Virus record (IMG/VR): IMGVR_UViG_3300010392_005364
Location: 1 to 42,472 of that record
Direction: 5' to 3' (one strand)
From: a virus
Length of the DNA stretch: 42,472 nucleotides
Shown: piece after piece, positions 242 to 24,100 of the stretch
Layout of the letters: each line of letters begins with the position of its first letter
How positions within the stretch are numbered: the stretch's first letter is position 1
The notes under the pieces: generated by a model
The model's database searches: none
What the model was told of the DNA's origin: nothing
The model's input: the letters and a program-made list of their open reading frames with translations, nothing else
Translations under genes and position numbers: made by a program

Positions 242-514
242 TCACCAGTATAGTTTCCCGCCCACTTCGTTCAGACCATACCCCCTTTCAAGGTATGGGA
301 TGGAACTGCGGTGTTCCAGGTATGCTGATAAGTCATCACGTCTACATTCGGCACCAACAAGCCCGATTGGGTTGGGTGCGTAAAACTCCGGTTTATCCAA
401 GCGTTCAGGGTGCACAGAAACCCCCACATAGCGTTCACACCCCAGGGATGCACACCCAACCACCAGGCACAAAAAAACCGGCACCAGGCCGGTTTGTATC
501 GTTCGCATAACCAT
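242..514 (-). CDS. Putative phage lipoprotein, 90 aa
   Basis: The N-terminus has a short hydrophobic stretch (VPVFLCLVVGC) ending in a good lipobox (VVGC, Cys at about residue 21), so the mature protein should be a lipid-anchored envelope protein of about 70 aa. The start ATG overlaps the stop of the tail-tip gene (TGATG), indicating translational coupling. The mature part has no recognised domain. It could be an outer-membrane exclusion or adsorption-related lipoprotein, or an o-spanin-like protein, but no Rz partner overlaps it. A strong terminator-like hairpin lies inside its signal-peptide codons, so expression may be attenuated, or the frame could be a coincidental read of the terminator region. 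Confidence 0.55.
   Translation of the reverse strand: MVMRTIQTGLVPVFLCLVVGCASLGCERYVGVSVHPERLDKPEFYAPNPIGLVGAECRRDDLSAYLEHRSSIPYLERGYGLNEVGGKLYW
471..495 (-). terminator. Intrinsic terminator after tail-tip gene, inside lipoprotein signal codons
   Basis: On the minus strand a perfect 8-bp stem (AAACCGGC with GCCGGTTT, loop CTGGT) runs directly into a run of seven T. It lies about 20 nt downstream of the tail-tip stop at 514, where a terminator is expected, yet it is within the first 15 codons of the overlapping lipoprotein frame. Confidence 0.75.
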
Positions 515-3500
515 CAGTCTGTTATGAACCCCACAAGGTGCATGTTGATAATTCTAGACACCCCTGAAAAAACACTAACCACTGAATAATACAAATAAAA
601 TTGTTTATTCGTCGCGGGAATGATCACTTGTTGGTTGGTCACGTACTTGCCAGAATTGCTGCTTTGTTCCATCTGGTAATGAACGATCCTGTGCCTTTCG
701 TTTGTGCTATTTGACCCGACTGTTGAATCATTTTCGTAAATCATCACCCGTGCACCATCCGCACTGGGTGAAACCGAAATATCAAAATTCACTATCAACG
801 CCTTGGTGTTTTCGGGTAAATCGTTTAATGCACTCCAATAGTCATCAACGTCAGAAGCCCCACCAGGTCCGACCAAATACCACGCGTTTTCACCCATTGA
901 TTCCAGGTCAAACGCGAATAATGACGCGTCACTGACCAGGTATGTGTTACCAGCCCGGATGAACCCCGTAGGTGGTGGTTGTTTTGACACAACACCGTCC
1001 CCGGCCGAAGACATCAACAAACCCAGTGGTGGTTCTGTTCCGTCAATACTGTCTACCCTGGGACGGGCAAATTCAGCCCATGCACCAGCGGTGCCGGAGT
1101 TTCTATATCGAAACTGAGCGGACAGCGGTAATGTTGTTCCGGCACCATTCGCGGTTGGGTCAAATTTGTATTCAACGAATGATTGCACTTTCTGACCGGT
1201 CACGGGGTCATAAAGCCCCGCAATACCGGACGAAACGGTCCGGCTGGTGGTCGCTGCGTGAATCACCATCACCAGCAAAAACCATTTATTCGCTTCCGGT
1301 AACGTGTCGTCGTTCATGGCGTAAACATACGGATAACCTGGGTTGACACCACCGTCCAGGGTCAACAACACGGAACTACTTGACGACTGGACCAAGAAGT
1401 CACCAATATTGTCCGAACGTAACCAGCATGTTATTCGACACGTCTGATTTTCACTGACAATACAGGGGTTACTATTTGCCGGGTCAAGTTGAAACCCGCC
1501 CTGGTCACTGAAGTTTGCGGAACCGTCACCAACGTGTTCAACGCGCCACACGATTTCGTCTTCACCGTAGGGACCGTCTGTCACCACCCGGCTATTGCTG
1601 GCTGTGTTTGCTAGCCCGTTGGTGGAGTCTGACGGGTTGGTGCTGGTATCCCCTGCAATCCATCCGGATCGGTCAAGCAAGTTGTTATATAGCTGCAAAC
1701 GTGGTGGCTGTCCGGTGATATTGTCTTCCCAGGTTGCCCCGTCTGTTGCATTGTCATCCGGTCTACCATCGCCGCCAACGTTGGACCAGTCATTGTTGGT
1801 ATAGGGACCAAATTGCAATGAACTGATTTTCGCACCCACATCCCTAAATGAAGTGTTAAAGTGATATTTGCGCCCAGCGTCTTCAGGAAGGTTGGAACCG
1901 GCCTGAACCCCGTTTTGATAAAATCTGACATATAAACCGTCGTATGTGATTGTGAACACATCACCGACAGAATAAGCGCCTATGGTTCCGAGGTTTACGC
2001 CATCCTTCCGAATCTGCCAACTACCATCACCGCGAAGGTACACCGCGTAGTCAATGTCGTTGTATCCATTTGTGACTGTTGGATCAGAACTCAACCCAAG
2101 CATAAGATAGCGCGTCACTGTTTCCGCTTTGAATGAACAGAACGCCCCGTCCACAAATGATTCCGCTGTGTAAACTTCACCAGTCCAGGCGATATTGTCT
2201 GATATTTTTTCAACAATAGACCCGTTGACTTTCATGGTCGCATTTGAAATCAGCGCATAAGGGGTTGCGTTGTTGTTGTCCGCGTCGTCTATTTGCTGCT
2301 GCTGCTCGCCTCGGGTTGGTAAAAAGCGCAAGTTGTCCGGCGCGTTGGTCACACTGGCCGTTGCTGTGAAAGTGACTTCAGACCCCGCGTATAGCTGACC
2401 CTGGTTGTTATAATATTTGGACACCGGTTTGACCCGGATTTCTATGTCAAAATAATACCCGTCCACCCCTTCCGTTGCCGCGTAGTCCGTGGCGTTTTTA
2501 TCAATGCTGTATTCATAAAACGGTGACACCGACTTTTCCACGCGCAACAACGTCCCACCGGATCGAATTTCAACCGCGTAATAATTGAAGTATATTTTTT
2601 CCCCGTTGGTGTGGTCCCACTGAAACACTGGACCAGGGCCAGAAAAGGAAGTGCCAGCGCCATCCAGTCCCAGGTCAACAATGGGGTCAAATGGATAAAT
2701 GGTTACCAATTCCGCGTTTGTGCGTCCGTTGACGTCGGTCACCGTGATGAAATCTTTCGGACCCAACCCCGCTGTCAAACCCGCTGTGGAAACAGGGTCC
2801 ACCCAAATCTCATAGGTTGACCCATCGCTGGGGACTTCCAACAAACCTTCCGCTGATACGCTACCTATCCCAAGCCAGATTTCACTACCCTGTTTGCGAT
2901 ACCTGACAATTGAATGTGAATAATAATCCACGTCGGGGGGTGTGATACTAATTTCAATTGTGGACCGGTCACCTTGCGGTGTTACCGGGGTGTTCCGGTA
3001 TTCGGTCAGGGTGAATGTGGGCATAATATCCACATACCGGGGGAAATCGTCTTCTGGTGTGTTTCGGGTGTCTAAAAACACCACATCCGAAAACACATCA
3101 ACCGCGTTTTGGTAGGTTTTACCCATCCCACCACCGCCTGACCGGGACGAAAAAGGTGGATTATTGACAACCTGTTCAGGTTTGTAATGATAATCTGGTC
3201 CACCGTCCCAAAGTGCAACATATTTGACCAGGGTGGTTTCCGGGCATACACCATAGTTTTGTGTAATGATTTCACTATTCGGTGTGGGGAATGTTTGGGA
3301 CGAATCCAGAGTCACCAACAGCAAGCCACCTGGTGCACCACCGGCCCCGGCACCTGCTGCCACCAGGTCTTCACCTTCCACGGTGATCACACCGCCTGGT
3401 AACCCATCACCGCCTGACAAATCCGTCGTACTACCCAACGAAAAATCCATCCCTTTAGCAAATATCATCAGTCCAGCGCCACCGTTGCCACCATCACCAC

Positions 3501-5787
3501 CGGGCACGATCACACTGGTTTCGTTGAATTGGAGTATCGGACCACCGGATGAACCGGAAGACCCCATCAGACTGTTGGGAACACCGTTTAAATTTCCATT
3601 GTCGTCTAAGACCAGGACAGGGGTTTCAAGGGTTTGTGTGTTTCCGCGAACGATGCGAGGCGTGAAACTGTCATGTTTTGGTCCATAGTGTTCGTCTGTG
3701 CTTTCGTAAAAATCCCGACCGTCTTGATAGGGGCGTCGGATCATCCCACCTTGCGCCAAGGTGTTACCAACCCCCGCTTGACCCAAATTTGACGAAACCG
3801 GGTTTTTTGAATGCGTTGGGTTATTGTCCGCAACACCACCAGGTAACCCCCTACCCTTCCCGTCAATGGTGCCAAACTGTTGGAAAAACCCGTTCACCCG
3901 GATTTGGGTGTTATTGTTTACAATCACCGTCCCGGACGCATCAATGGTTAAATCTTCGGAACAATAATAAACCGCGTTGGGGTTGCCCATGCTGGCGTGA
4001 CCGGTCAAGTTTATTGTACCTGTCACAGTGGTCACACCGTTGGAACTTGACACCTGACCAGGAAAATTGGTGGCGTTGATTTCCGTCCCTTCGGACGTCA
4101 GAAATACATCATCCGGAGTTTCGGTGTTATCAGGGGCTTGTGGTGCTGGTTTACGCGAACTACCCACCAGCGAGACATGGACACGCCCTTTAAACCAATC
4201 ATTTTTAATAGATCGGATTTCAAAATTCCGATCTATTGAAATGGTTGTTTCCGCTGCGGCATCTCTCACAGCGTCCAAATCCAACCGGACAATGTCACCC
4301 ACTTCCAGGTCATTTTGGTCTGGTGTCAATTCCAATGAAATTTCATATGGTGTGGAACTGTGCATTGTTCGCATAACACTGAAATGATGGTCAATCAATG
4401 TGTCAGAATGACGCGAACCATGAAGCGTTTTCAGTTCAATAATTTTTGGGTCAGTTTCAGTGTTTGGTTCGATTGATCCTTCATCACGGAAAACACTGGT
4501 CCGTGAATATTTTTCCCGTTTTTCGTCCCAATGCCATTTCAGGATGAACGTGTTTCTTATGTCGTTCAGTTTTTGAACAAGTGGTCCATAGCTGACCACG
4601 TTGTCTTCATTCAGTAAACGATCATAGCCGCCGTTGGGTCCAATATATTTGATCCGTTTCAGTGATAGTTCACCCGTTGAACGGATGGGTGAATACACCC
4701 CCATCATGTAAAACAAATCCGATTCCAGGAACTTTTTACCGTCTATCTTTTCATAACCATTAACCCGTGCCGGGTAACCCGCATCGTCATCGTTTATGTC
4801 CCAAAGATCGGAACCAATGTTCACGAACGCGGACGTTTGAACGTAATCAGTTGACACGCCTAAATGCCAGTGGTCGGGTAGGTATTTCCCAGCGTGACCA
4901 TAAAAAAGACCCGTCATAATCGCATATGCGAGTTTGACACCAGGCATTTCCAAATAGACATGTTCCGTTATTTTGGGAGCGTTCTGGTTGGTCGCGTCAG
5001 GGTCCACCGTGACAGCCAACGCCTTGGTTCCCAATGCACCCCGAATACAACCGGTGAATGTGTTGGTCTGGTCGTCTTTGCTGTACCACATTACAGTTTC
5101 ATAGTCATCATCGTTTTCCAATTCAAAGAAACCCACTTCATCTACACCGGCCAGTTCCGGATACACCAGGTTGTTTTGCCCATCACGTTTTTGTTGTAGT
5201 GCCCTGAGATATGTTTTCCCCTGTGCACTGGGGACTTGATAGACAGATTTAAAACGTGTGGTATCAAAGGCGGGAATCACCGTTTGATCGGCTGTGATGC
5301 TACTGGTCAATACAGTTTCTTTGGGTATAAAAATTTTCTTGCGCAAAAACCGCTGTGCATCCGAGCAACGGAATTTATATACCCCGTCTTTGTAGCTGAT
5401 TTCACCATCAATGACCTGTGTTTGGATTAGTTGGAAATTCTCCCACAGCAAACCCTTGTAACCCTGGTACACCCGGACCCTTTTTTGGTTCAAACCTTTT
5501 TGTTCAGACAGTTTGGTTTGCTGCAACGACGTCAACCCTATGTCCAGGCATTCAAACGAAATTGAACCAATGCTGGCAATAGCTTTTTCAGGGTTGATTG
5601 TTTGTGACGTACTGGAAACAATTTTCAAGGTGTTGTTAATTATGTTACCGGTCAAACCTGGAACCAGCGCACTGGTCAAATAGTGAATATCTGTGTTGGC
5701 ACTATCGAACGACAAAGCAACAACAAAAACGGGTTCTTTCGTTGCTGCTTTGTTATATTCAGCAAATTCCTGTGTGTCGATTCTCAT
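514..5787 (-). CDS. Tail tip / host-specificity fibre protein, 1757 aa
   Basis: This very large last gene of the tail module follows the tape measure and a small tail protein, the usual place of the central tail hub and receptor-binding protein. The N-terminal ~550 residues look like a hub/distal-tail fold. Around 650-890 the sequence is glycine-rich (for example GGDGGNGG near 765, GGGGMGK near 885). Two FN3-like segments follow (about 945-1010 and 1050-1130), then a jelly-roll/concanavalin-like segment (about 1200-1320) and a second possible carbohydrate-binding beta-sandwich (about 1400-1580). The unique C-terminal ~150 residues may contact the host. The start at 5787 overlaps the previous stop (ATGA). 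Domain limits are estimates by eye. Confidence 0.8.
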   Translation of the reverse strand: MRIDTQEFAEYNKAATKEPVFVVALSFDSANTDIHYLTSALVPGLTGNIINNTLKIVSSTSQTINPEKAIASIGSISFECLDIGLTSLQQTKLSEQKGLNQKRVRVYQGYKGLLWENFQLIQTQVIDGEISYKDGVYKFRCSDAQRFLRKKIFIPKETVLTSSITADQTVIPAFDTTRFKSVYQVPSAQGKTYLRALQQKRDGQNNLVYPELAGVDEVGFFELENDDDYETVMWYSKDDQTNTFTGCIRGALGTKALAVTVDPDATNQNAPKITEHVYLEMPGVKLAYAIMTGLFYGHAGKYLPDHWHLGVSTDYVQTSAFVNIGSDLWDINDDDAGYPARVNGYEKIDGKKFLESDLFYMMGVYSPIRSTGELSLKRIKYIGPNGGYDRLLNEDNVVSYGPLVQKLNDIRNTFILKWHWDEKREKYSRTSVFRDEGSIEPNTETDPKIIELKTLHGSRHSDTLIDHHFSVMRTMHSSTPYEISLELTPDQNDLEVGDIVRLDLDAVRDAAAETTISIDRNFEIRSIKNDWFKGRVHVSLVGSSRKPAPQAPDNTETPDDVFLTSEGTEINATNFPGQVSSSNGVTTVTGTINLTGHASMGNPNAVYYCSEDLTIDASGTVIVNNNTQIRVNGFFQQFGTIDGKGRGLPGGVADNNPTHSKNPVSSNLGQAGVGNTLAQGGMIRRPYQDGRDFYESTDEHYGPKHDSFTPRIVRGNTQTLETPVLVLDDNGNLNGVPNSLMGSSGSSGGPILQFNETSVIVPGGDGGNGGAGLMIFAKGMDFSLGSTTDLSGGDGLPGGVITVEGEDLVAAGAGAGGAPGGLLLVTLDSSQTFPTPNSEIITQNYGVCPETTLVKYVALWDGGPDYHYKPEQVVNNPPFSSRSGGGGMGKTYQNAVDVFSDVVFLDTRNTPEDDFPRYVDIMPTFTLTEYRNTPVTPQGDRSTIEISITPPDVDYYSHSIVRYRKQGSEIWLGIGSVSAEGLLEVPSDGSTYEIWVDPVSTAGLTAGLGPKDFITVTDVNGRTNAELVTIYPFDPIVDLGLDGAGTSFSGPGPVFQWDHTNGEKIYFNYYAVEIRSGGTLLRVEKSVSPFYEYSIDKNATDYAATEGVDGYYFDIEIRVKPVSKYYNNQGQLYAGSEVTFTATASVTNAPDNLRFLPTRGEQQQQIDDADNNNATPYALISNATMKVNGSIVEKISDNIAWTGEVYTAESFVDGAFCSFKAETVTRYLMLGLSSDPTVTNGYNDIDYAVYLRGDGSWQIRKDGVNLGTIGAYSVGDVFTITYDGLYVRFYQNGVQAGSNLPEDAGRKYHFNTSFRDVGAKISSLQFGPYTNNDWSNVGGDGRPDDNATDGATWEDNITGQPPRLQLYNNLLDRSGWIAGDTSTNPSDSTNGLANTASNSRVVTDGPYGEDEIVWRVEHVGDGSANFSDQGGFQLDPANSNPCIVSENQTCRITCWLRSDNIGDFLVQSSSSSVLLTLDGGVNPGYPYVYAMNDDTLPEANKWFLLVMVIHAATTSRTVSSGIAGLYDPVTGQKVQSFVEYKFDPTANGAGTTLPLSAQFRYRNSGTAGAWAEFARPRVDSIDGTEPPLGLLMSSAGDGVVSKQPPPTGFIRAGNTYLVSDASLFAFDLESMGENAWYLVGPGGASDVDDYWSALNDLPENTKALIVNFDISVSPSADGARVMIYENDSTVGSNSTNERHRIVHYQMEQSSNSGKYVTNQQVIIPATNKQFYLYYSVVSVFSGVSRIINMHLVGFITD

Positions 5788-11508: not shown

Positions 11509-11760
11509 TTATTTCCCGTCTTGTTTGTTTTGCACCGCACGTAATTTTTTCTGGTGTTTCAGGATGTCACCGAATTCCACCTGTTCACCAATTACAAACC
11601 CGTTCTTGTTCTTCACGGGTTCACTTGCTTCCTGTACTTCAGGGGTTTCCTGCATTTCAGGGGTTTCCTGTACTTCAGGGGTTTCCTGTACTTCAGGGGT
11701 TTCCTGTACTTCAGGGGTTTCCTGTACTTCAGGGGTTTCCTGCTTTTTTCGTCTTGGCAT
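11509..11760 (-). CDS. Small acidic protein with (ETPEVQ)n repeats, 83 aa
   Basis: The ATG at 11760 (MPRRKKQETPEVQ) is chosen because AAGGTG lies seven bases upstream; an in-frame GTG at 11769 would sit inside that ribosome binding site. After a basic N-terminus come six ETPEVQ hexapeptides (one with Met for Val), then a conserved-looking C-terminal part (NGFVIGEQVEFGDILKHQKKLRAVQ). It lies between capsid and head-tail adaptor, where small head proteins, head fibres or decoration proteins are often found. The repeat would be an extended, acidic, Pro-containing linker. No firm function. Confidence 0.65.
   Translation of the reverse strand: MPRRKKQETPEVQETPEVQETPEVQETPEVQETPEMQETPEVQEASEPVKNKNGFVIGEQVEFGDILKHQKKLRAVQNKQDGK
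11633..11740. repeat. Six tandem 18-bp direct repeats in a head-region gene
   Basis: The unit TGTACTTCAGGGGTTTCC is present six times head to tail. Five copies are identical and the second (11651-11668) differs at two or three bases. Near-identity of third codon positions indicates recent slippage-type expansion; the copy number is probably variable between relatives. Confidence 0.9.
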
Positions 11761-11782
11761 TGTGTTCACCTTTGTGACAATG

Positions 11783-13670: not shown

Positions 13671-14750
13671 TCAGTTATCAAACGCCTTTTTGAACGCGTT
13701 GGGTTCTTTCTTGCGCATCTGGTCCAGGGTCAACGGTTTGAAATTCTTGTCCAGTTGCAATTGTTTGAACTGGGTGGGGGTCAGTCCCCCATCACGCAAA
13801 AGTTTTGCACGTTGAACCCCCAACACATCGTTTTGAAACTCCACCGGTTGTTTCTTCAACCAGGTGTAATAATCCTGGTTCGGTGCCGGTCCTTTCCCCT
13901 TGGGACCATTTGACGCCCGTGTTTGACCTTCTTTCAGAAAGTTATATTTTTTGTCCAGGCTTGCAATGGTGGTACTTCTGCAACGGATATGAATGGGGGG
14001 TTTTGGGCCTTTCCCCAATGCAAACACCCGTCCGTCCAGGCTTTGACATTGTATTGTGGTGCGACTATCCAGAGTGGACACCCATTCATACCCTTTGACC
14101 ACATTGCTGTTGCGTGACCAGGTTTCAAACCGGGAAACGCTGGCCACGTGTTGAACAGACGTCCTGACAATGGCTTCCGCGTTGCGATTGACGATTGCCA
14201 ACGCCCCATCACGAAAATTGTTGGCTTTGGTGCCGCGCAATGCCTGGATAATTTGAAAATTGGTCTGACCTTCAAAAAAACCCTGCCGAATTACACCCAC
14301 CAATCGGTTCCTGTCCGTCTTTGCCCAATCCTTGATAAAAGGTGACAACAATTTACCGCCATCTGGTCCCCGGACAGACAACGGTTGTGAAAACACCGCC
14401 GCCTTGACCTGGGCTTGCGCCGGGATCACTGATTCAAAACCTTGTTCATCTATCGCATTTTGCAGGGACCGGGCTTCAAATTCGGATTCATATTCCGCAA
14501 TTTCGACCAAATCCAGTTCCAGTTGCCCTTGGAATTCGTTGAAGATTTTGTCCAGGTTTTTATTCACAGACGACAGCAAACGTGTCAGACGGGTCCGTGT
14601 GTAACTTGTCAAGTCGTCCCGCGTTAAACGTTCCCGCAAGTCCTTGTCAATACGTTTCAGGAACTTCCCAAAACGGTCCACCTGGTTGGCTTTCAGACCT
14701 TCCAAATAGACCTGGTTGCGGACGGTGGAATCAAGCAGCGTTGCGTTCAT
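13671..14750 (-). CDS. Minor head protein, Mu gpF / SPP1 gp7-like, 359 aa
   Basis: ATG at 14750 (MNATLLDSTV) overlaps the end of the portal gene by 20 nt and has a GGTGG-type ribosome binding site; an upstream in-frame extension is mostly portal sequence read in another frame. The C-terminal half carries the MuF signature: ARTSVQHVAS-like helix (VRTSVQHVASVSRFETW), DSRTTIQCQSLDG, then PPIHIRCRSTT with the paired Cys and His. In relatives it is a portal-associated internal head protein needed for DNA exit. It is adjacent to the portal as usual. Confidence 0.88.
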   Translation of the reverse strand: MNATLLDSTVRNQVYLEGLKANQVDRFGKFLKRIDKDLRERLTRDDLTSYTRTRLTRLLSSVNKNLDKIFNEFQGQLELDLVEIAEYESEFEARSLQNAIDEQGFESVIPAQAQVKAAVFSQPLSVRGPDGGKLLSPFIKDWAKTDRNRLVGVIRQGFFEGQTNFQIIQALRGTKANNFRDGALAIVNRNAEAIVRTSVQHVASVSRFETWSRNSNVVKGYEWVSTLDSRTTIQCQSLDGRVFALGKGPKPPIHIRCRSTTIASLDKKYNFLKEGQTRASNGPKGKGPAPNQDYYTWLKKQPVEFQNDVLGVQRAKLLRDGGLTPTQFKQLQLDKNFKPLTLDQMRKKEPNAFKKAFDN

Positions 14751-16212
14751 CGCCACCGTCTTCATCTTGGTTGTCGTCGTCCAGGTCCAGACCCAAACCG
14801 CTGGACATGACTTCCACTTCACCGTCCAATTCTTCGTCCGTTTTGTCTGGATCAACCAGTCCGTGTTTACGCATTTGCATCCAGAAATCGGAACTTGGGA
14901 GCCTTCCGGCTTGCCATGCACCCACCAAGGCAGTCAACATTTGTGCGTCCAGGGTGTGTTCAATGAAGTCCTGGGACAACGTGTATTCAATTTCGCCGGT
15001 CACGTTTTCAAACATGGCCACCCATTCCAACGCCTGGGTGTAGGCTTCCGACACGTTAGACGCGACCAGGGATAACACGGAATGTTCGTTTTCACTGTCT
15101 CCCTGGGCTTCTGTCGCTGTTTTAACCGCTTGCCCTTTCTGGACCAGACGCGCCCCCAGGGTTTTCATCTGTTCTTCTTTCTTTTCCATGGCGGTTTCCG
15201 CCAGGCTGTTGGGGTCAACCTGTGCAAAACCAAACGTCCCGCCTTCCGGCAAGGGTAAAATGGTTGACGAACCAATGACGATTTCTTGGGACTCCAACCA
15301 GTCACGCCATTCCGTATCCAACCCGGTCATGTATGGCTGCGGTTGACCTGTGAAATATGCGCTGTCTTCAAACCAGGCTGAATTGCGATAGTGGGCAATG
15401 TTCAAATTAGCCAAGTCAAGCAAAGGGGGTTTGTCGATTGAGGTGTCATTGTTTTCCGCACCCACAAACGTGAAGGGTATGACATCCCACGGTTTACCCC
15501 TTCCCGTTGTGGGCATGTGCGGACCTTCCACCTTGTCCCAGATGTCTGAATTTTCACCCTTTCGCCAAATTTCAAAATAATAAACACCGTTTGTTAAACG
15601 TAACACGCGGAACTGGGGTTCATGCTCCACCCCGAACCCGTCCTGTGTAACGGTTTGATGCTGTTCAGCTATTACCACCAGTGTCAATTTCGACACACCA
15701 CCAATGTTTTCCACGCGCCAATTGATCACCTGTTCCGCTTCACAGCAAATTACCCTCGCCCGGATGTTTTCTGATTTCTTGCGTTCAACAGTCAATTCCC
15801 CGGTGATCTGTGGATGATCCACAAACAAACCTTTGCGACCTTTCATCAACACATGTGCCAGGGTTTTTTGAGACTGTTGATAAATACTGACGCCATAACC
15901 ATCAATATCCGACCCCACAAAGTCCATCGCGCCCGGAACCACCAGTGTGGGAACCTTTCGGAAAACCGTACCTATCAACGCCGCCAGGGTTCGACCTGTG
16001 GCGTTGTAGAACACCGCCCGTTTCAGAAATTCCTCATAACGAGATTTGTTCTTTTGGGACTCGTCTGTGGGGTTTGGTCGCGGTAAATATCGATCCTTTT
16101 TATCTTTGACCTTTCGTTCACCCTCGCACACATCAGAAACCAAGGACCAGTCCTTGGTTGCATATTTGTGGTCGTTGCGCTGATAGGTCACGTCATAGGT
16201 TTTATTCGTCAT
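14731..16212 (-). CDS. Portal protein (DUF4055 family), 493 aa
   Basis: It begins MTNKTYDVTYQRNDHKYA and has the DUF4055 pattern: RYEEFLKRAVFYNATGRTLAALIGTVFRK near the start, a DIDGYGVSIYQQSQ segment, LANLNIAHYRNSAWFEDSAYFTGQP and a long C-terminal helical crown. Such proteins are portals, forming the dodecameric DNA channel at one vertex. Size and position before the MuF-like protein agree. Unusually it is separated from the large terminase by about 8 kb of lysis and accessory genes. The start overlaps the preceding stop (ATGA). Confidence 0.88.
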   Translation of the reverse strand: MTNKTYDVTYQRNDHKYATKDWSLVSDVCEGERKVKDKKDRYLPRPNPTDESQKNKSRYEEFLKRAVFYNATGRTLAALIGTVFRKVPTLVVPGAMDFVGSDIDGYGVSIYQQSQKTLAHVLMKGRKGLFVDHPQITGELTVERKKSENIRARVICCEAEQVINWRVENIGGVSKLTLVVIAEQHQTVTQDGFGVEHEPQFRVLRLTNGVYYFEIWRKGENSDIWDKVEGPHMPTTGRGKPWDVIPFTFVGAENNDTSIDKPPLLDLANLNIAHYRNSAWFEDSAYFTGQPQPYMTGLDTEWRDWLESQEIVIGSSTILPLPEGGTFGFAQVDPNSLAETAMEKKEEQMKTLGARLVQKGQAVKTATEAQGDSENEHSVLSLVASNVSEAYTQALEWVAMFENVTGEIEYTLSQDFIEHTLDAQMLTALVGAWQAGRLPSSDFWMQMRKHGLVDPDKTDEELDGEVEVMSSGLGLDLDDDNQDEDGGDERNAA

Positions 16213-16538
16213 AGTTCTTTCACCATAAATTCACAGGACCGGTCTGCCTGGGGAATGTATTGTGTGGAAAATCGGAACGTGACCCTGTATTTGTCATATA
16301 GATTGCCACCTGAAAACTGGGCTTTAACAACATCTGTCCCATTAGATTGGGTGGTTTCCAATCTCAAACCGTCAAAGGTTTCACCAACATTCACCACCTG
16401 GTCATTAATCAGAATTGAAAACGACGTGATTGTTTCATCGTCCGCCATGTTTTGCGGTGAAAATTCAACCCATTTGAAATCGTTCGGGTCTTTCGGGTTG
16501 ATTGTTGGAATGTTGTTCCCGTCGTGAGTAACCACCAT
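16209..16538 (-). CDS. Small beta-sandwich structural protein, 109 aa
   Basis: It begins MVVTHDGNNIPTINPKDPNDFKWVEFSPQN and shows alternating beta-strand patterns (TSFSILINDQVV, DKYRVTFRFSTQY) as in small Ig-like or fibre-associated virion proteins. The last codon overlaps the portal ATG, so it is translationally coupled to the head module, and its ribosome binding site is AAGGGGCG. It marks the junction between the accessory block upstream and the head genes. Role unknown; probably a virion surface or structural protein. Confidence 0.6.
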   Translation of the reverse strand: MVVTHDGNNIPTINPKDPNDFKWVEFSPQNMADDETITSFSILINDQVVNVGETFDGLRLETTQSNGTDVVKAQFSGGNLYDKYRVTFRFSTQYIPQADRSCEFMVKEL

Positions 16539-16547
16539 AAACGCCCC

Positions 16548-17678
16548 TTAACTTGCGTCCCATTGGACGACGTCAACGCTGACGTCAAACCTGATAATTG
16601 TCTTAGCGTTTAGGAATTCAGTAATGGGTATTACTTGTCCAACGCTGTCGGTTTCTTCCGGTGACCCCACGCCGATTTCGATAGGGTTCACCACCTGAAC
16701 GGGGTCCACGTTATCGGATTCTTCGGGAGTGCCTACATCGACCGCACCGGGGGCGTCCACTGTCACCGGATCAACACTATCCGTTTCACCGGGCGAACCG
16801 ACACCAATCACGACTCCCGCATCAATAGACGGGGTCACAGAATCAACCGAATCGGACTCTGACGGGGTGCCTACCGCGACATTTGAGTTTGTCCCGTTGT
16901 CGATACCTACAGCATCAACAGAATCCGTTTCACCCGGACTACCGACATTAATCTGCTCTGCTGGGGCTTCAAACGTTTCTGTCACATAGTCAGACCAGAC
17001 CCCATCATACAAAGCATATTGCACCGTACCGCTTGCGCTAAGGGTGTACGTCCCGTCTGTGACATCAATATCGATGCCGGGATCAATATCTTTGATGTGC
17101 CCGTAGTTACCCACTTGCACGCTGTCGTCCGCATAGATACCCGCCGGATCGATGCTCGCAATCTGACCGTATTGCTCACCATCCTTCGGTCCAATGGGTA
17201 TATCAAACTCGACGGTTTCTGCGCCACTGGTGACAGTGAACGTGATCGCCGTGTTATAGGTCAGTGTCTTGTCACCGAATAACGGCGGCTCCGGCGCATA
17301 GAAACCGATTAACCCGCCATTGTTTGATTCGATGGGCACGGTCCCGGCCGAACATGAAAGGGTTTCTGACCCGTCACCGTTACCCACTCTAATGACAACA
17401 AGATCACCGGCTTTGATATTAGCATCAGGGCCAGCAATCAATACAAAATCACTGCTGATCGGTTCAACGTTATCCGTTTCATCCGGCCCCCCAACATTAA
17501 TCGAATCCGTGGGGGTAACCGATTCAACGCTGTCCGATTCGGTAGGTGTACCGACATTAAAATTAACGTCAACAACCGCCCCATCAACGATAGTCACCGT
17601 TGCATTCCGGGTGACCGTCAACCCATCATCACGGGTTGCAGTAATCGAAACAGGATAGGTGCCAGCAGCCAAAGCCAT
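16548..17678 (-). CDS. Secondary structural protein with seven VGxPxETDSV repeats, 376 aa
   Basis: ATG at 17678 overlaps the preceding stop (TAATG). It begins MALAAGTYPVSITATRDDG, an Ig/CNA-B-like beta segment, followed by repeated acidic motifs of the form NVGTPTESDSVESV. I count seven, two near residues 45-75 and five between about 240 and 355, separated by beta-rich blocks. No signal peptide or membrane segment is seen. The same motif recurs in the gene at 19855-21378, so the two are related parts of one system. Similar short 'ETD' repeats are known in phage fibre proteins; here they probably form Ca-binding or stalk-like repeats (inference). Confidence 0.7.
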   Translation of the reverse strand: MALAAGTYPVSITATRDDGLTVTRNATVTIVDGAVVDVNFNVGTPTESDSVESVTPTDSINVGGPDETDNVEPISSDFVLIAGPDANIKAGDLVVIRVGNGDGSETLSCSAGTVPIESNNGGLIGFYAPEPPLFGDKTLTYNTAITFTVTSGAETVEFDIPIGPKDGEQYGQIASIDPAGIYADDSVQVGNYGHIKDIDPGIDIDVTDGTYTLSASGTVQYALYDGVWSDYVTETFEAPAEQINVGSPGETDSVDAVGIDNGTNSNVAVGTPSESDSVDSVTPSIDAGVVIGVGSPGETDSVDPVTVDAPGAVDVGTPEESDNVDPVQVVNPIEIGVGSPEETDSVGQVIPITEFLNAKTIIRFDVSVDVVQWDAS

Positions 17679-18082
17679 TACGCTTGTCTCCACTCGTATT
17701 CGATTTGTGCGATGACCACCGTTGCATCCAGTGGGTAATCCATATTCGTCACTTGATCCGATACCAGCAACAATCTCGTATCATCGTACACTGCCACCCA
17801 AGCGTCCGCCGAACCGGCAGTGACCGGGACTTGCACCGTTGAGTTGAATTCAAATTGTGGGATAACGACTTTCCGTGACTTCGTATTGATCCCGTTAGCG
17901 AGCGTGATCTGTCCATCAGACAACGTTTCTTCCAACGAGATACGATTACCACCGGAGCCAGCTAGGTTTACACAGTCAGCGCGTGACACCGGTTTGGTTT
18001 GACAGATCGCATATTTCAGATCACGGCCTACCAGCACACCCATACCGTTGTCGATAACATACGCTGTGATTTCTGTTGTCAT
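17678..18082 (-). CDS. Hypothetical accessory-block protein, 134 aa
   Basis: It begins MTTEITAYVIDNGMGVLVGRDLKYAICQT and is predicted almost entirely beta, with no signal peptide. A clear ribosome binding site (AGGTGAC) precedes the ATG at 18082. It lies between the subtilase and the VGxPxETDSV-repeat protein and overlaps the latter's start. No family is recognised. From context it is a small virion-surface or fibre component, or a partner of the subtilase. Confidence 0.6.
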   Translation of the reverse strand: MTTEITAYVIDNGMGVLVGRDLKYAICQTKPVSRADCVNLAGSGGNRISLEETLSDGQITLANGINTKSRKVVIPQFEFNSTVQVPVTAGSADAWVAVYDDTRLLLVSDQVTNMDYPLDATVVIAQIEYEWRQA

Positions 18083-18089
18083 AAGTCAC

Positions 18090-19322
18090 CTATGGGAGTG
18101 GTTGAGTTTCGCCTATTGGCACAAGACCGGATATTTCTTCAAATTCAATATACGGGTCGAGATAAAGCATTCGGTTATTGTTATTGGCCGACGCAGCGCC
18201 ATTCATTGACTCCGTGAAGTCAATTGCCCCCTGAGTAGCATTAACAAGCAACTTGGCTTTAAGTGCCTGCACTTGTGCTCTACTGGTCAATCTTCTGTAG
18301 CCTTGCAGCATACACGCGAGCACACCAGCCGTATAAGGTGACCCAAAACTTGTACCGGATCGATTACCTGCGGGGGGTGTGGATTCTGAATATTGAGAAG
18401 GGGCATAAATATCTACCTGTTGGCCATAACTAGTGCCGTATCGACGATCATAGAACATCGTATCGTTCATAGCCGTACCGCCTACAGCCACACAATCATC
18501 AACTCCAGTTGCAGGCCAAAACTCCTCGAAATCCGTGTTGTTTCGGAAATTACCTGCGGCAAAACAGCAAATGATCCCTGCATCTATTAATGTATCAATC
18601 GCATCTAGCTCTGCTGTTGTCGCTCCTATGCCCCCATAGGAGCCATTAAACACAGCAGGTCTATCTAGCCCTGATCTACCTTGGTAATGGTTCAAAATAT
18701 CGTTGATTTCCGTCACTCTTGTAGCTGCATTGGTTGACCATAAAACATCCCAGATAGTTGCCTCTTTAGCGACTCCATAGCGCGCCCCTGCCGCACAGCC
18801 TGCAACATAATGCCCGTGACCGGTTGAGTAATTATCTGCAACACTACCATCTAAATTGAACGCTCGACCGGAAAAGTCATCCTCAGTTCCCCGTATTCCA
18901 GTGTCATAGATGTAAATATCCACACCCTGCCCAGTGCGGGCGTATTGGTAATCTGTGGAAATAATCTTTTCGGGGCGTTTTATGGACCAAGGGGCTTTTC
19001 GTCTACAAATTCGAGGAAGCGCCCAAGCATCACCTGTAATCTTATATGTGGTGGCGTCGAGGGAAATGTTTTGCACTGATACAGCACATAATTCGGCATC
19101 CTCATTGTCATCCTCAACAGATCGAACACTTGGGTGGCCTGCGAGGCTAAACGTTTGTGAGTCAACATCTTCCACGATATAGATATTCCTTAACGCGGTC
19201 ATCTGCTGAAATGCATAACCAGCACCATTTAAATCGTTCGCAAACGAATCAACATTCGAAGTCTTGTGCAACGTAACAATAATCACGGCTGGATTTGCTC
19301 CACAATTTCCATCGTTAACCAT
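18090..19322 (-). CDS. Subtilisin-like serine protease (S8, proteinase K type), 410 aa
   Basis: The catalytic set is complete: Asp140 (IYIYDTGIRG), His169 (GHGHYVAG), Asn258 (CFAAGN) and Ser325 (SGTSFGSPYTAG). The lead-in YQYARTGQGVDIYIYDTGIR strongly resembles proteinase K-type enzymes. Residues ~12-75 look like an I9 inhibitor prodomain, so it may be made as a self-inhibited zymogen. There is no signal peptide, so it would act in the cytoplasm, on assembling virions, or after lysis. Start: the ATG at 19322 overlaps the upstream gene by 40 nt; a GTG at 19286 (398 aa) would overlap that stop by only four bases with GGAG upstream. An S8 protease inside a phage structural operon is unusual. Confidence 0.9.
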   Translation of the reverse strand: MVNDGNCGANPAVIIVTLHKTSNVDSFANDLNGAGYAFQQMTALRNIYIVEDVDSQTFSLAGHPSVRSVEDDNEDAELCAVSVQNISLDATTYKITGDAWALPRICRRKAPWSIKRPEKIISTDYQYARTGQGVDIYIYDTGIRGTEDDFSGRAFNLDGSVADNYSTGHGHYVAGCAAGARYGVAKEATIWDVLWSTNAATRVTEINDILNHYQGRSGLDRPAVFNGSYGGIGATTAELDAIDTLIDAGIICCFAAGNFRNNTDFEEFWPATGVDDCVAVGGTAMNDTMFYDRRYGTSYGQQVDIYAPSQYSESTPPAGNRSGTSFGSPYTAGVLACMLQGYRRLTSRAQVQALKAKLLVNATQGAIDFTESMNGAASANNNNRMLYLDPYIEFEEISGLVPIGETQPLP

Positions 19323-19858
19323 GTTTCCGGAATCTTGACACTCGTACCCTGTGGGATGTCCGAGTAAAGCTCAAAATATTCAGTTCCAGTCACATCAATA
19401 ACATCCGTCAGTATCGGAATACCGCCGTTAAAATTCGCAAACGGGCCTAACTGGTGCCCTTCATCACTAGGTTGGGCTTCACCATTTTTCAGTATATCCA
19501 ACGTGATTGTCTGCGAAGTCATGGTATGGAACTTCCCATAAAAGCGAACTTTTGTAGCGTCAGCAGGTACATAAATGCGGGTAGGGTTTGCCCCGCTCCA
19601 CATGCTATCCGTATCTCTTTTGGATGTGTACCAAGACACAACACCTGGACCAAGTAACAACGCCCCCGCACCTTCATCGCCAGTAACCGTTACCCCACGA
19701 AAGGCTTCCTGCCTGCCTTGTACAACAGTCTGCCCGGTCATTAAAACCGCGAGCTGGTCAATTGTGATCGGGCCGGCAGAGGTGTAGATCACGTCGGAGC
19801 CGTTTGCAGTTCCTAACCCGACTCGTGCTTGCAATTCCGTTAAAGTTTCAATTGTCAT
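19283..19858 (-). CDS. Fibre-like beta protein, 191 aa
   Basis: It begins MTIETLTELQARVGLG and contains a jelly-roll-like segment (ARIYVPADATKVRFYGKFHT... ITLDILKNG style, about residues 90-135) and ends TWLTMEIVEQIQP. Such patterns occur in phage fibre tips and collagen-like or TNF-like trimeric domains. It has a good ribosome binding site (GAGGG) and overlaps the upstream repeat protein by four bases, so it is coupled to it. Probable virion-surface or adsorption protein; no exact family recognised. Confidence 0.6.
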   Translation of the reverse strand: MTIETLTELQARVGLGTANGSDVIYTSAGPITIDQLAVLMTGQTVVQGRQEAFRGVTVTGDEGAGALLLGPGVVSWYTSKRDTDSMWSGANPTRIYVPADATKVRFYGKFHTMTSQTITLDILKNGEAQPSDEGHQLGPFANFNGGIPILTDVIDVTGTEYFELYSDIPQGTSVKIPETWLTMEIVEQIQP

Positions 19859-21378
19859 GTTCTTATACCCTCGTCGCCATATAGCAGCTCTGAAGCATTC
19901 AATTTCAAAGCAACTGGTGTTTTTAATTCATCTGATTCTTCAAAACCTAGTTGATAACCATAGGGCGTATCGACGTACCAATTTCCGGCTATGTTCAAAG
20001 CTGTGTAGGTTTGCCCGTCGATTGTGAGTGATACGGTCGCATCGGCATCGCTCACGGTGCCGCTAAAATCCAGAACGTCATTGGCAGTCACTAAGTCATC
20101 AAAACCAATCCAGAAAATATCGGTTGCACCGCCTGAATCGACAGGCGAAAAATAGACGGGCGTTGCATGAGTCATGAAAGGTTGTGACCAGTCTGACCAC
20201 TCTGAGCGAATCGAGCCTGTACCGTTTTTACCCTGCACCCGGAACCTAAAAAATGTATGCGCCGCCAATGCCTCGGTTAATGTCGTTGCTTCGATGTCTT
20301 CAACCAGCGTCACTTGGTTGGTGAACAGATTCTCAATCTCTACATCAAACAGCGCCCCTTCAATTACCGGCGCATCACTGTCTACTTGAGCCGTGGCAGA
20401 CTCCACCGTGTCGGTTTCATTGGCTGAACCCACGCTAACCGTGTTATCGGGATCAATAGACGGGGTGACCGATTCAACAGCATCGGTTTCACCAGGTCCG
20501 CCAACACCAATTTCCTGGTTTGTACCGTTGTTCGCAGAGACAGAATCAACCGAATCGGTTTCGACTGGTGTACCGACATTCACCGTATTATCGGAATCAA
20601 TATTCGGGGCGACTGGATCAACACTATCCGTTTCACCGGGAGTGCCAACCCCTAATTCAATGTGTGCAGCCAGCACAGTTGTGAACGAAATATCGTCAGG
20701 GTAACCGGATTGTGCACCGGAATCAGACACACCCTCGACACTGACAAAATACTGCTTATCATCGATCAGATTAATCAGCGTTTCCGCCAGATCGGTTTCA
20801 CCATTGATATACGTGTAGGCCGGATCATCCACGGATCGGTAGCGAATATTAAAGCTGGTGGCAATTTCAACCGGGGCGACCTCAACATTGCGAATCTCGG
20901 TTGTTGTGTTGCCCCCGGAATCCGTGACAGAGTATTCGACCTCGTAAAAGCCTGCCGTATTAACGTCTACCGGATCATTAACAGAAATACTACCTGTCAG
21001 ATCACCGTCAACGTCATCGGACGCCGTTGCACCGGGATCAGTCCAAGTCCCGCCCACGGGGATGCGAATTGTTGAGGCACCCAGCAGCGTGATAACCGGT
21101 GGGTTATCCTGTACCGTGACAGAATCAACGCTGTCGTTCTCGCTGGGCGTCCCCACGCTGATTTCCAAATTGCCGGGGGGTGTTGAGAATGTAACAAGGG
21201 TTGACCACGGCGAGGGGTGACCCACACCGTTGATCATGTCTATACCCTGCACCTGTGCTTCGTAATCCAGATCCTGTGCAAACGTGGAAATCGTATCAGA
21301 CAACGCCGTAATGCCTGTCTCATACGTCCAGTCAGTTTCGCCGGTTTCACGGTAGCGGATCTGGTACTCTACAGTCAT
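19855..21378 (-). CDS. FN3/Ig-like protein with five VGxPxETDSV repeats, 507 aa
   Basis: Residues 1-75 are the C-terminal three quarters of an FN3 domain (VEYQIRYRETGETDW ... PSPWSTLVTFSTP). Then come one ETDSV-type repeat, a DUF5011/HYR-like Ig domain (about 95-165), a second FN3-like domain (about 170-235), four more ETDSV-type repeats (about 240-330) and a C-terminal beta region. The missing first FN3 strands are encoded in the same frame just upstream, before a TAA at 21384-21382. The ATG at 21378 has poor ribosome-binding-site spacing, so this may be the second half of one gene interrupted by a stop. Confidence 0.7.
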   Translation of the reverse strand: MTVEYQIRYRETGETDWTYETGITALSDTISTFAQDLDYEAQVQGIDMINGVGHPSPWSTLVTFSTPPGNLEISVGTPSENDSVDSVTVQDNPPVITLLGASTIRIPVGGTWTDPGATASDDVDGDLTGSISVNDPVDVNTAGFYEVEYSVTDSGGNTTTEIRNVEVAPVEIATSFNIRYRSVDDPAYTYINGETDLAETLINLIDDKQYFVSVEGVSDSGAQSGYPDDISFTTVLAAHIELGVGTPGETDSVDPVAPNIDSDNTVNVGTPVETDSVDSVSANNGTNQEIGVGGPGETDAVESVTPSIDPDNTVSVGSANETDTVESATAQVDSDAPVIEGALFDVEIENLFTNQVTLVEDIEATTLTEALAAHTFFRFRVQGKNGTGSIRSEWSDWSQPFMTHATPVYFSPVDSGGATDIFWIGFDDLVTANDVLDFSGTVSDADATVSLTIDGQTYTALNIAGNWYVDTPYGYQLGFEESDELKTPVALKLNASELLYGDEGIRT

Positions 21379-21381
21379 GCC

Positions 21382-22107
21382 TTAGCTCGCATCCCAACTG
21401 AAATCAGCAGAATTTGAGGTGATGTTTGTCACCTGTAGGTTTTGAGGCTGCGCCACAATGGGATCAGGCACTTGACCGAATGGCGCTACATCCCCATCTG
21501 TCGCTAAAGAGATAATGGAATAGCGCATTAAATCACTAGCATTTCTTTCCCCTAAACCCAAATAGCCTGGGTTTGTCGGGGTACTAACGGTCGCTTCGTA
21601 CTGCCAGCTTCCAGGTTCTGCTGCGGCGGGGTCATTGCCGACCGTGAACTGCCACATTTTCCCATAAATCTTATCCCCTTGAGCGCGGAAACGCATTGCG
21701 GTTGCGTTCGTCAGCGCCCATCCTGTCGGGGGCGAATTCACTTCTACGGACTGAGTAGCGCCAAGGATTTGAAACGTTGGGGTAGATGCACTGCCGGACA
21801 CGCGCAGACCTCTCGTATCACCCGTCCGGCGAGCGTGTGCTTCCAGATTGACCGCACTAACTCCAACTTCGCTAGACGTGAAATCCTGTATTAACAGTAT
21901 TTCCTGATTCAGCGTTTTGGCAAAGTCTTTGTAGTCAGCAACGTCATTAAGCCCTGTCCCGCCTGTCGCTTGCCAGATGTGTCGCCCATCGCCTAAATCA
22001 ACACACTCTAGGTCATAAGAGGGCCCAAAAGCGCCCCACATCGGGAACCCCACTGTAGATAAGAGAGTCCCGACGGGGTAATCGTTTGCATCAATAAATC
22101 GCTGCAT
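21382..22107 (-). CDS. Accessory-block structural protein ending in a truncated FN3 domain, 241 aa
   Basis: It begins MQRFIDANDYPVGTLLSTVG. A central LamG/jelly-roll-like part (about residues 70-190: WQFTVGNDPAAAEPGSWQYEATV, then GYLGLGERNASDLMRY) fits a carbohydrate- or surface-binding fold. It ends PQNLQVTNITSNSADFSWDAS, the first strands of an FN3 domain, and stops at TAA. The next two codons in frame lead directly into the rest of that FN3 domain in the downstream gene. The ribosome binding site AAGGGGCG precedes ATG 22107. Confidence 0.7.
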   Translation of the reverse strand: MQRFIDANDYPVGTLLSTVGFPMWGAFGPSYDLECVDLGDGRHIWQATGGTGLNDVADYKDFAKTLNQEILLIQDFTSSEVGVSAVNLEAHARRTGDTRGLRVSGSASTPTFQILGATQSVEVNSPPTGWALTNATAMRFRAQGDKIYGKMWQFTVGNDPAAAEPGSWQYEATVSTPTNPGYLGLGERNASDLMRYSIISLATDGDVAPFGQVPDPIVAQPQNLQVTNITSNSADFSWDAS

Positions 22108-22118
22108 GACAACGCCCC

Positions 22119-22673
22119 TTAGTTGGCGACAAAGGCCCCGGTGCTGGGCAAAATCGCAGTCAGGTTGTTGCCGTTCGTGGTCGTCGCAAAATCAACGTGC
22201 GCAATCGGGATCAGGTCAGAGTCCGTACCACCTGTCGTGTCGTTGTCGTAGGTGTACAGCATTTTAACTATGGTGTTATCCAGCGTGCCGCCTGCACTTG
22301 TGTAACTGGGGTCCGGCATGTCCGAATATTTGCGGTTGTTTGTGTCGTCAACCGTCGATCCGGTGATGTCGGAATCGGTATAAACGATGCGGGTATAGTT
22401 GGTGAAATCCGCTTCAGTGTTACCCCCAGCGGCCAGCAATGCCCCAACATCGTCGTAATCTTCCAACACCGCGTCAGCTTCAGCAGCTTTCAGCAAGATA
22501 ATGACAATGCCGGAATTCGCCGGATCGTTATTCGCCACACGGTCGAAGTATTCATTGCCTGCACCCTTAGCGACATTGAAAACCCCATCCCCGGCAAAGG
22601 CAGGGACTGAAAACGCAATGGCAACCGCCAGCGCGACCAAAGTGGTGGTGATTCGATTAAAAATTGACTTCAT
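22119..22673 (-). CDS. Sec-exported protein resembling a phage virion protein, 184 aa
   Basis: ATG at 22673 has GAGAGGGG upstream. Residues 1-27 form a textbook Sec signal peptide (basic start, TLVALAVAIAF core, AFA cleavage site before GDG). The mature part (VFNVAKGAGNEYFDRVANND..., then DDVGALLAAGG and DTTGGTDSDLIPIAHVDFATT) resembles a family of ~155-aa phage structural proteins that normally start at the VFNVAKG region without a signal peptide (recognition from memory). A signal peptide on such a protein is odd and suggests export to the periplasm or beyond. Confidence 0.7.
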   Translation of the reverse strand: MKSIFNRITTTLVALAVAIAFSVPAFAGDGVFNVAKGAGNEYFDRVANNDPANSGIVIILLKAAEADAVLEDYDDVGALLAAGGNTEADFTNYTRIVYTDSDITGSTVDDTNNRKYSDMPDPSYTSAGGTLDNTIVKMLYTYDNDTTGGTDSDLIPIAHVDFATTTNGNNLTAILPSTGAFVAN

Positions 22674-22687
22674 TTTTGTGTCCCCTC

Positions 22688-23104
22688 TCAAGGTACGGTT
22701 AAAGAAATATCATCGGAAAAATTCCCTTGCTGCCGGTCTGAATCGACGGTCGCAATACGGAATGTGTAGGCCCCTGCTGGCATCCCATAGAGTTGGAATT
22801 CGGTGCCCGGTGACACGGCTAATTGCACTGTGACCCCGCTGCCCCGCTCATACTGCAAAACGTAATAAAAGATTTCGTTTCGTGGTAGTGGTGAACTGTC
22901 TTCTCGCTGCGTTGGTGTGTCCCATGACAGATTGATCGTGTACAGTTCAATACATTTTGTCCCGCGCCGACCGTTGCCACAGTCCTGTGTGTAATCCTGC
23001 ATCCTGTGCGTTTTACCAACAGGCGATGCCGCCCACACCGGTAAAGCCAGCAAAGCGCACGTGATGAAAACGGCAATTAGAAGGCTGAATAGAAACGCTT
23101 TCAC
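22688..23104 (-). CDS. Exported FN3-domain protein, 138 aa
   Basis: The N-terminus (MKAFLFSLLIAVFITCALLALPVWAASP) is a Sec signal peptide, with cleavage likely after VWA. The mature ~112 residues form one FN3-like domain (INLSWDTPTQ, then FYYVLQYERG, then YTFRIATVDSDRQ ... ISLTVP) with a Cys pair near its start (DCGNGRRGTKC), able to form a disulfide outside the cytoplasm. It overlaps the upstream small gene by four bases. It may anchor or present partners at the cell surface; role unknown. Confidence 0.7.
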   Translation of the reverse strand: MKAFLFSLLIAVFITCALLALPVWAASPVGKTHRMQDYTQDCGNGRRGTKCIELYTINLSWDTPTQREDSSPLPRNEIFYYVLQYERGSGVTVQLAVSPGTEFQLYGMPAGAYTFRIATVDSDRQQGNFSDDISLTVP

Positions 23105-23620: not shown

Positions 23621-24100
23621 TCAGTGGTCCAGGTAGATTTGCGCGGTTGAAATAACCGTTTCCAGGATCACCCGCAACGCCAACCGGGTGTCATCCGTCA
23701 ACACGGGTTCACGTTGATCAAATTTCCGGATTTCTTGTTCAACCAACATCATGATGTCCTGGATCAACAAACGATCCGTGGGGTTCAGTTCATCCCATTC
23801 AATAGACCGGTCAATAACCGCCATCAGCGTGTCCACGGTGGCCCTGGGTTCACCGTCCAGGTACAAAAGCGCCTTGGTGACCCGCACCTGGACCGCTTCC
23901 GCCCTGTCGCGTTCGTCTTCAATCGTGTCACCCGCTGCAATGTAGTGACCCACGGCTTGGCGGGTGGCGATATTTGCAAACACAGGGTTTTCGTTGACGT
24001 AATCACCCAGGGTTTCAAAGGTGGAACACCCTGACACGGCAAAAGTCAGGCATAAAAAAACCGCGATAAACGCGGCCTTAATCGTGGTCATGGTTTTCAT
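23621..24100 (-). CDS. Lysis-region lipoprotein, 159 aa
   Basis: The N-terminus has a Lys start, a hydrophobic core (AFIAVFLCLTFAV) and a lipobox VSGC (Cys at about residue 25), so the mature protein is an envelope lipoprotein. The rest is mostly helical and acidic, lacking a C-terminal membrane segment, so it is not a simple unimolecular spanin. It overlaps the holin-like gene (ATGA) and may be the outer-membrane partner in lysis. A terminator-like hairpin occupies its signal codons. Confidence 0.75.
   Translation of the reverse strand: MKTMTTIKAAFIAVFLCLTFAVSGCSTFETLGDYVNENPVFANIATRQAVGHYIAAGDTIEDERDRAEAVQVRVTKALLYLDGEPRATVDTLMAVIDRSIEWDELNPTDRLLIQDIMMLVEQEIRKFDQREPVLTDDTRLALRVILETVISTAQIYLDH
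24054..24075 (-). terminator. Terminator-like hairpin inside lipoprotein signal codons
   Basis: On the minus strand CCGCG pairs with CGCGG around TTTAT (six pairs if the flanking G:T is counted), followed by seven T and ATGCCTGA. It lies about 20 nt after the holin-like stop at 24097, where a terminator would be placed, but within the coding sequence of the overlapping lipoprotein gene. Confidence 0.6.

Follow-up and report, generated by a model that had tools for sequence, protein, structure and literature searches.

A probable tail-fibre cassette with a subtilase and a divided FN3 domain in a siphovirus genome

The minus-strand gene block at 16548-23104 is very probably a horizontally mobile tail-fibre (host-recognition) cassette of fibre, adaptor and protease proteins, a reading well supported by its context. 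In different phages its genes are found together at the sites of tail or fibre genes. The novelty lies in the combination and in a split domain, not in the fibre genes as such: an FN3 domain is divided between neighbouring genes in all five cassette phages, which is new and unusual. An earlier note had proposed that the block looks like a co-acting surface assembly processed by a protease, a separate system with which the virion or the infected cell could be coated. Co-inheritance supports the assembly, since most families recur together and in order in four other phages. The separate system is not needed; the note had named tail-fibre placement in relatives as evidence against it, and relatives largely do carry these genes at tail-fibre positions. 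A system outside the tail was rejected on this gene context.

Cassette layout and recurrence in other phages

The window spans an entire IMG/VR virus record (42,472 bases). Profile searches of its ORFs identify the minus strand as a siphovirus late region with genes for an M15 endolysin, terminase subunits, a holin and a lipoprotein, DUF1353-type genes and then the block. Beyond it on the same strand lie genes for the portal (14731-16212), a MuF-type head protein, scaffold, major capsid protein and neck, and further late genes encode the tail tube, a chaperone, the tape measure and a 1,756-aa tip protein. The lipoprotein (23621-24100, minus strand; lipobox VSGC), unassigned to a family, is encoded between the holin and DUF1353 genes. 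A small minus-strand gene between the capsid and neck genes (11509-11769) contains about six tandem copies of a QETPEV repeat.

As claimed, the minus strand carries all eight ORFs of the block, flanked by the M15 endolysin and holin lysis genes on one side and the portal gene on the other, and Pfam confirms the FN3/Ig domains. The genes had been called coupled by short overlaps throughout; the junctions are short (overlaps or gaps of at most about 11-14 nt), but not all are overlaps, with gaps of 3, 7, 9 and 11 nt. Homologue starts and overlap motifs were the basis for revising three starts to the likelier ATG at 22673 (gene 22119), GTG at 19286 with a GTGA overlap (S8) and ATG at 17678 within TAATG (gene 16548). 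A ninth gene, 16209-16538, comes next after the eight and belongs to the block. Terminase and portal genes are adjacent in three portal-related phages (PSASB_03, PseuP_222 and M39), so the 8.1 kb of lysis genes and cassette between them in the window occupies that place.

Single-sequence IMG/VR scans with the window proteins returned only fragments (L002, L009) that match this virus at 99-100% identity, and alignment-based scans were needed to reach other cassette-bearing phages. The latter located the cassette in four other metagenomic phages, L012, L014, L015 and L105. Each has a homologue of 21382 and keeps the gene order 22119-21382-19855-19283-S8, with one or two jelly-roll genes accompanying S8. 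Homologues of 17678 and the repeat protein 16548 come after S8 in L012 and L014. The L012 cassette is downstream of homologues of the window tip gene and gene 242, with a peptidase gene in between, and that of L014 is beside a P22-type portal (phrog_156, 5e-153). The L015 and L105 cassettes follow T7-type internal virion protein genes, the usual site of T7 fibre genes. Among 50,697 cultured-phage records there were zero matches to homologues of 16548, 21382 and 17678, and one Ig domain was the sole match to those of 19855.

The putative tail-tip protein of the window (514-5787, minus strand) has no Pfam match, and parts of it are 31-55% identical to a 1,890-aa protein upstream of the L012 cassette. 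The small minus-strand gene after it (242-514) shares 60% identity with a gene, probably for a lipoprotein, that occupies the corresponding position in L012.

It is very improbable that the block consists of moron genes, unrelated to the tail, inserted by chance between lysis and portal. Its position is unusual compared with relatives and 22688 and 22119 look exported, but the gene-for-gene order is kept at tail-fibre positions across phages with different head genes.

The last three genes of the block follow the protease gene on the minus strand. Gene 17678 (17678-18082) encodes a conserved 133-aa cassette protein with no fold assigned, 53% and 47% identical to its L012 and L014 homologues; an IMG/VR scan with this family yielded nothing beyond these two phages. 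Gene 16548 (16548-17678) encodes a fibre protein related to 19855 (BLASTP 8e-18). The VGxPxETDSV repeats reported for two proteins are indeed there, with seven copies in 16548 and five in 19855. They are a diverged form of the LGxATETxTA repeats in the L014 homologue, and the repeat positions are nearly equal (74/75, 243/245, 267, 291 and 315). Gene 16209 (16209-16538) matches PF23148 (Gp77 of podophage GP4) with E = 2.1e-5, and because its 25.4 bits fall under the curated cut-off of 27 it is listed as a candidate fibre-tail adaptor only.

Signal peptides and a possible adaptor-type fold

The two proteins singled out earlier as Sec-exported, 22688 and 22119, begin with typical predicted Sec signal peptides. 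Protein 22688 (22688-23104, minus strand) is a predicted exported protein with the signal peptide MKAFLFSLLIAVFITCALLALPVWA, a short Cys loop (DCGNGRRGTKC) and a J-type Ig/FN3 domain that matches Pfam Ig_J (tip attachment protein J; E = 1.6e-4) and PHROG 31 (central tail fibre J; 9e-7). The DCGNGxxGxxC loop also occurs in a 1,223-aa signal-peptide protein with FG-GAP repeats from the L012 cassette (L012:12227-15898). A motif search of the loci examined found the loop in these two proteins only, besides the same-virus fragment L002.

Protein 22119 (22119-22673, minus strand; phrog_26662) belongs to a broad family found at 92 IMG/VR loci. Its homologues in phages Pam4 and Hiyaa adjoin baseplate or minor tail genes, and some relatives adjoin laminin-G-type lectin proteins. 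The AF2 model (pLDDT 87) suggests an adaptor-type fold. VIA-align matched it to T4 baseplate (Z = 10.0) and the Bxb1 tail tip (Z = 8.5), the top three chains having Z = 10.0, 9.8 and 8.5. One chain of the GP4 fibre/fibre-tail-adaptor structure (PDB 8jou) followed at Z = 7.4, and seven more chains from phage tails or connectors scored Z = 4.5-6.3, although values under 8 can reflect a common arrangement; most of the 12 top matches are phage tail or connector proteins. Foldseek against the PDB returned nothing significant for this model. GP4 is a different phage type, its adaptor family PF23148 is matched weakly, under the curated cut-off, by 16209, and a sequence search of the PDB for this comparison gave no match.

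The 22119 signal peptide, MKSIFNRITTTLVALAVAIAFSVPAFA, is complete, ends in VPAFA and sits exactly ahead of GDGVFNVAKG, the normal start of the family. None of about 88 relatives examined has a signal peptide; their starts are MADxVFNIAKG-like. The signal peptide is thus a new feature of the window protein compared with its relatives, and it is hard to explain because an adaptor, once exported, would have difficulty reaching a tail built in the cytoplasm. Both signal peptides are ill-suited to cytoplasmic tail assembly of 22688 and 22119 and count against the cassette reading.

On their sequences, an exported role may apply to these two proteins only. They would be Sec-exported in the infected cell, for example to block the receptor against superinfection, and the other genes would be virion fibre genes. 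This division is a serious possibility but a doubtful one. The strength of both signal peptides, the placement of that of 22119 (unique among its relatives) directly before the normal start, and the Cys pair of 22688, which suits the periplasm, argue for export; the probable adaptor-type fold of the 22119 core, for which no exported role is known, argues against it. A precedent is the J/lom/stf region of lambda, where the exported protein gene lom lies among tail fibre genes (PMC12309495), as in the window block. Lom is an outer-membrane beta-barrel, whereas the window's two predicted exported proteins have FN3/Ig domains in one case and a probable adaptor fold in the other.

An FN3 domain divided between two genes

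Genes 21382 (21382-22107) and 19855 (19855-21378), both on the minus strand, encode a fibre protein and a fibre shaft protein that together contain one FN3 domain. The C-terminal end of 21382 supplies strands A and B (...NLQVTNITSNSADFSWDAS). Protein 19855 opens with strands C-G, followed by a repeat, a bacterial surface Ig domain, a second FN3 domain, four 24-aa VGxPxETDSV repeats and a C-terminal domain. The junction (21370-21390, minus strand) reads ...SWDAS TAA GGC ATG ACT GTA.... The upstream half alone scores 0.014 against the fn3 profile, and the stretch joined through the stop matches profile positions 2-81 of 84 with E = 2.1e-12. An AF2 model of the joined stretch takes strands 221-226 and 233-238 from 21382 and residues 245-307 from 19855, mostly with pLDDT of about 89-95. 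The model superimposes on FN3 domains with Z = 15.5 and rmsd 1.2 A over 92 residues; it is of a single joined chain and says nothing conclusive on association of two chains.

The cut falls after the strand-B Trp in all five phages (the window, L012, L014, L015 and L105), and each downstream ORF opens with an ATG at the equivalent site. Both ORFs share a reading frame and lie one codon apart in the window (TAA GGC ATG), in L012 (TGA TAG ATG) and in L015 (one-codon gap), as expected if both halves were made as one protein by stop readthrough, frameshift or sequencing error. The halves are out of frame in L014 (TAATG) and L105 (TAG plus four bases), L012 has two consecutive stops, and the common ATG position comes from five independent assemblies. 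A single product is therefore highly unlikely, and readthrough or frameshift was rejected on the two out-of-frame junctions and the double stop. Because the split is shared and out of frame in two phages, two separate products are the conserved state. Conservation and fold together suggest that 21382 and 19855 may form an FN3 clasp, joining by completing one domain from two chains. A strand-complementation clasp of two tail proteins, kept across different tails, in a fibre bearing its own host-protein-cutting subtilase is a tentative proposal, with chances somewhat short of even. The open-licence literature searched gave no description of phage-tail subtilases or split FN3 domains.

The subtilase and its jelly-roll-type partner

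The protease gene (18090-19286, minus strand; listed ORF start 19322) encodes an S8 subtilase of the proteinase K/aqualysin type with its own N-terminal region. It matches Pfam Peptidase_S8 (E = 3.4e-17), and the complete triad reported earlier is present (D139/H168/S324) with the oxyanion N257. The family profile matches aqualysin (4e-43) and proteinase K (about 1e-34), and the catalytic H, N and S are conserved in 12/12 homologues and D in 11/12. A signal peptide is absent. The N-terminal region, about 100 residues before the catalytic domain, matches no Pfam inhibitor (pro-domain) family. The L014 subtilase homologue (L014:7969-9195) has Glu in place of the catalytic Asp, with one residue inserted there, and may be inactive.

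The partner gene 19283 (19283-19858, minus strand) encodes a jelly-roll-type fibre-domain protein. The jelly-roll label given earlier has as its sole support homology to a repeated domain in tail proteins of Variovorax phage V45iii and Xanthomonas phage Mallos (BLASTP 9e-11 and 5e-11). A jelly-roll-type fibre partner is beside S8 in 11/12 loci. This pair, narrower than the cassette, is present in Mallos, V45iii, L013, L098, L016, L097 and a Mesorhizobium prophage (L096); L013 and L098 are large contigs sharing the Mallos gene order. It follows tail-tip genes in Mallos, V45iii, L098 and L013, precedes the tape-measure gene in the Mesorhizobium prophage and is within tail regions wherever neighbours are identifiable. 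The Mallos and V45iii subtilases belong to the same family as the window S8 (35-36% identity) and are directly adjacent to the homologous partner gene. The 22119, 21382, 19855, 17678 and 16548 families are absent near that pair, and the partner protein, unlike 19283, combines a DUF2793 domain with two jelly-roll-type domain copies. Bacillus phage Goe3-type and other phage S8 proteases (phrog_3677), compared by sequence alone, share the S8 catalytic domain with the window at 28-29% identity across half of the query. A subtilase match from Acinetobacter MD-2021a was set aside as a phage relative because it sits among ordinary host genes.

Whether the protease cuts the host surface rather than the fibre is an even call. 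A maturation protease, acting during assembly on itself and on the fibre proteins and not at entry, is the rather unlikely alternative. The S8 protein is cytoplasmic and encoded beside possible substrates, with the jelly-roll gene its neighbour in 11/12 loci; subtilases usually carry a self-cleaved propeptide, and phage head maturation proteases are a precedent. S8 nevertheless pairs with fibre genes of differing make-up (DUF2793-type in Mallos and V45iii), so there is no obvious cleavage site in common.

The computed results are the synteny, the family assignments, the intact catalytic residues, the divided domain and the probable adaptor fold; presence in the virion, assembly and substrate are what we infer for the tail-fibre cassette. 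The Ig/FN3 domains and 24-residue repeats would form the shaft, the jelly-roll-type protein 19283 would be the fibre-head domain, and the 22119-family and 16209 adaptor-type proteins would dock the fibre onto the tail. The subtilase, made in the cytoplasm, would ride on the fibre and cut a host surface protein, filling the slot held by a polysaccharide depolymerase in other phages.

Phages that digest sugar capsules at entry are well known. If it is fibre-borne, the protease would be the protein-layer counterpart of these capsule-digesting enzymes. Splitting a conserved FN3 domain over two genes hints at a route for joining modular fibre parts; this could be put to a direct test and exploited as a protein clasp that needs no covalent bond. 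In the cassette, a complete fibre assembly is seen to move among phages with different tail types.
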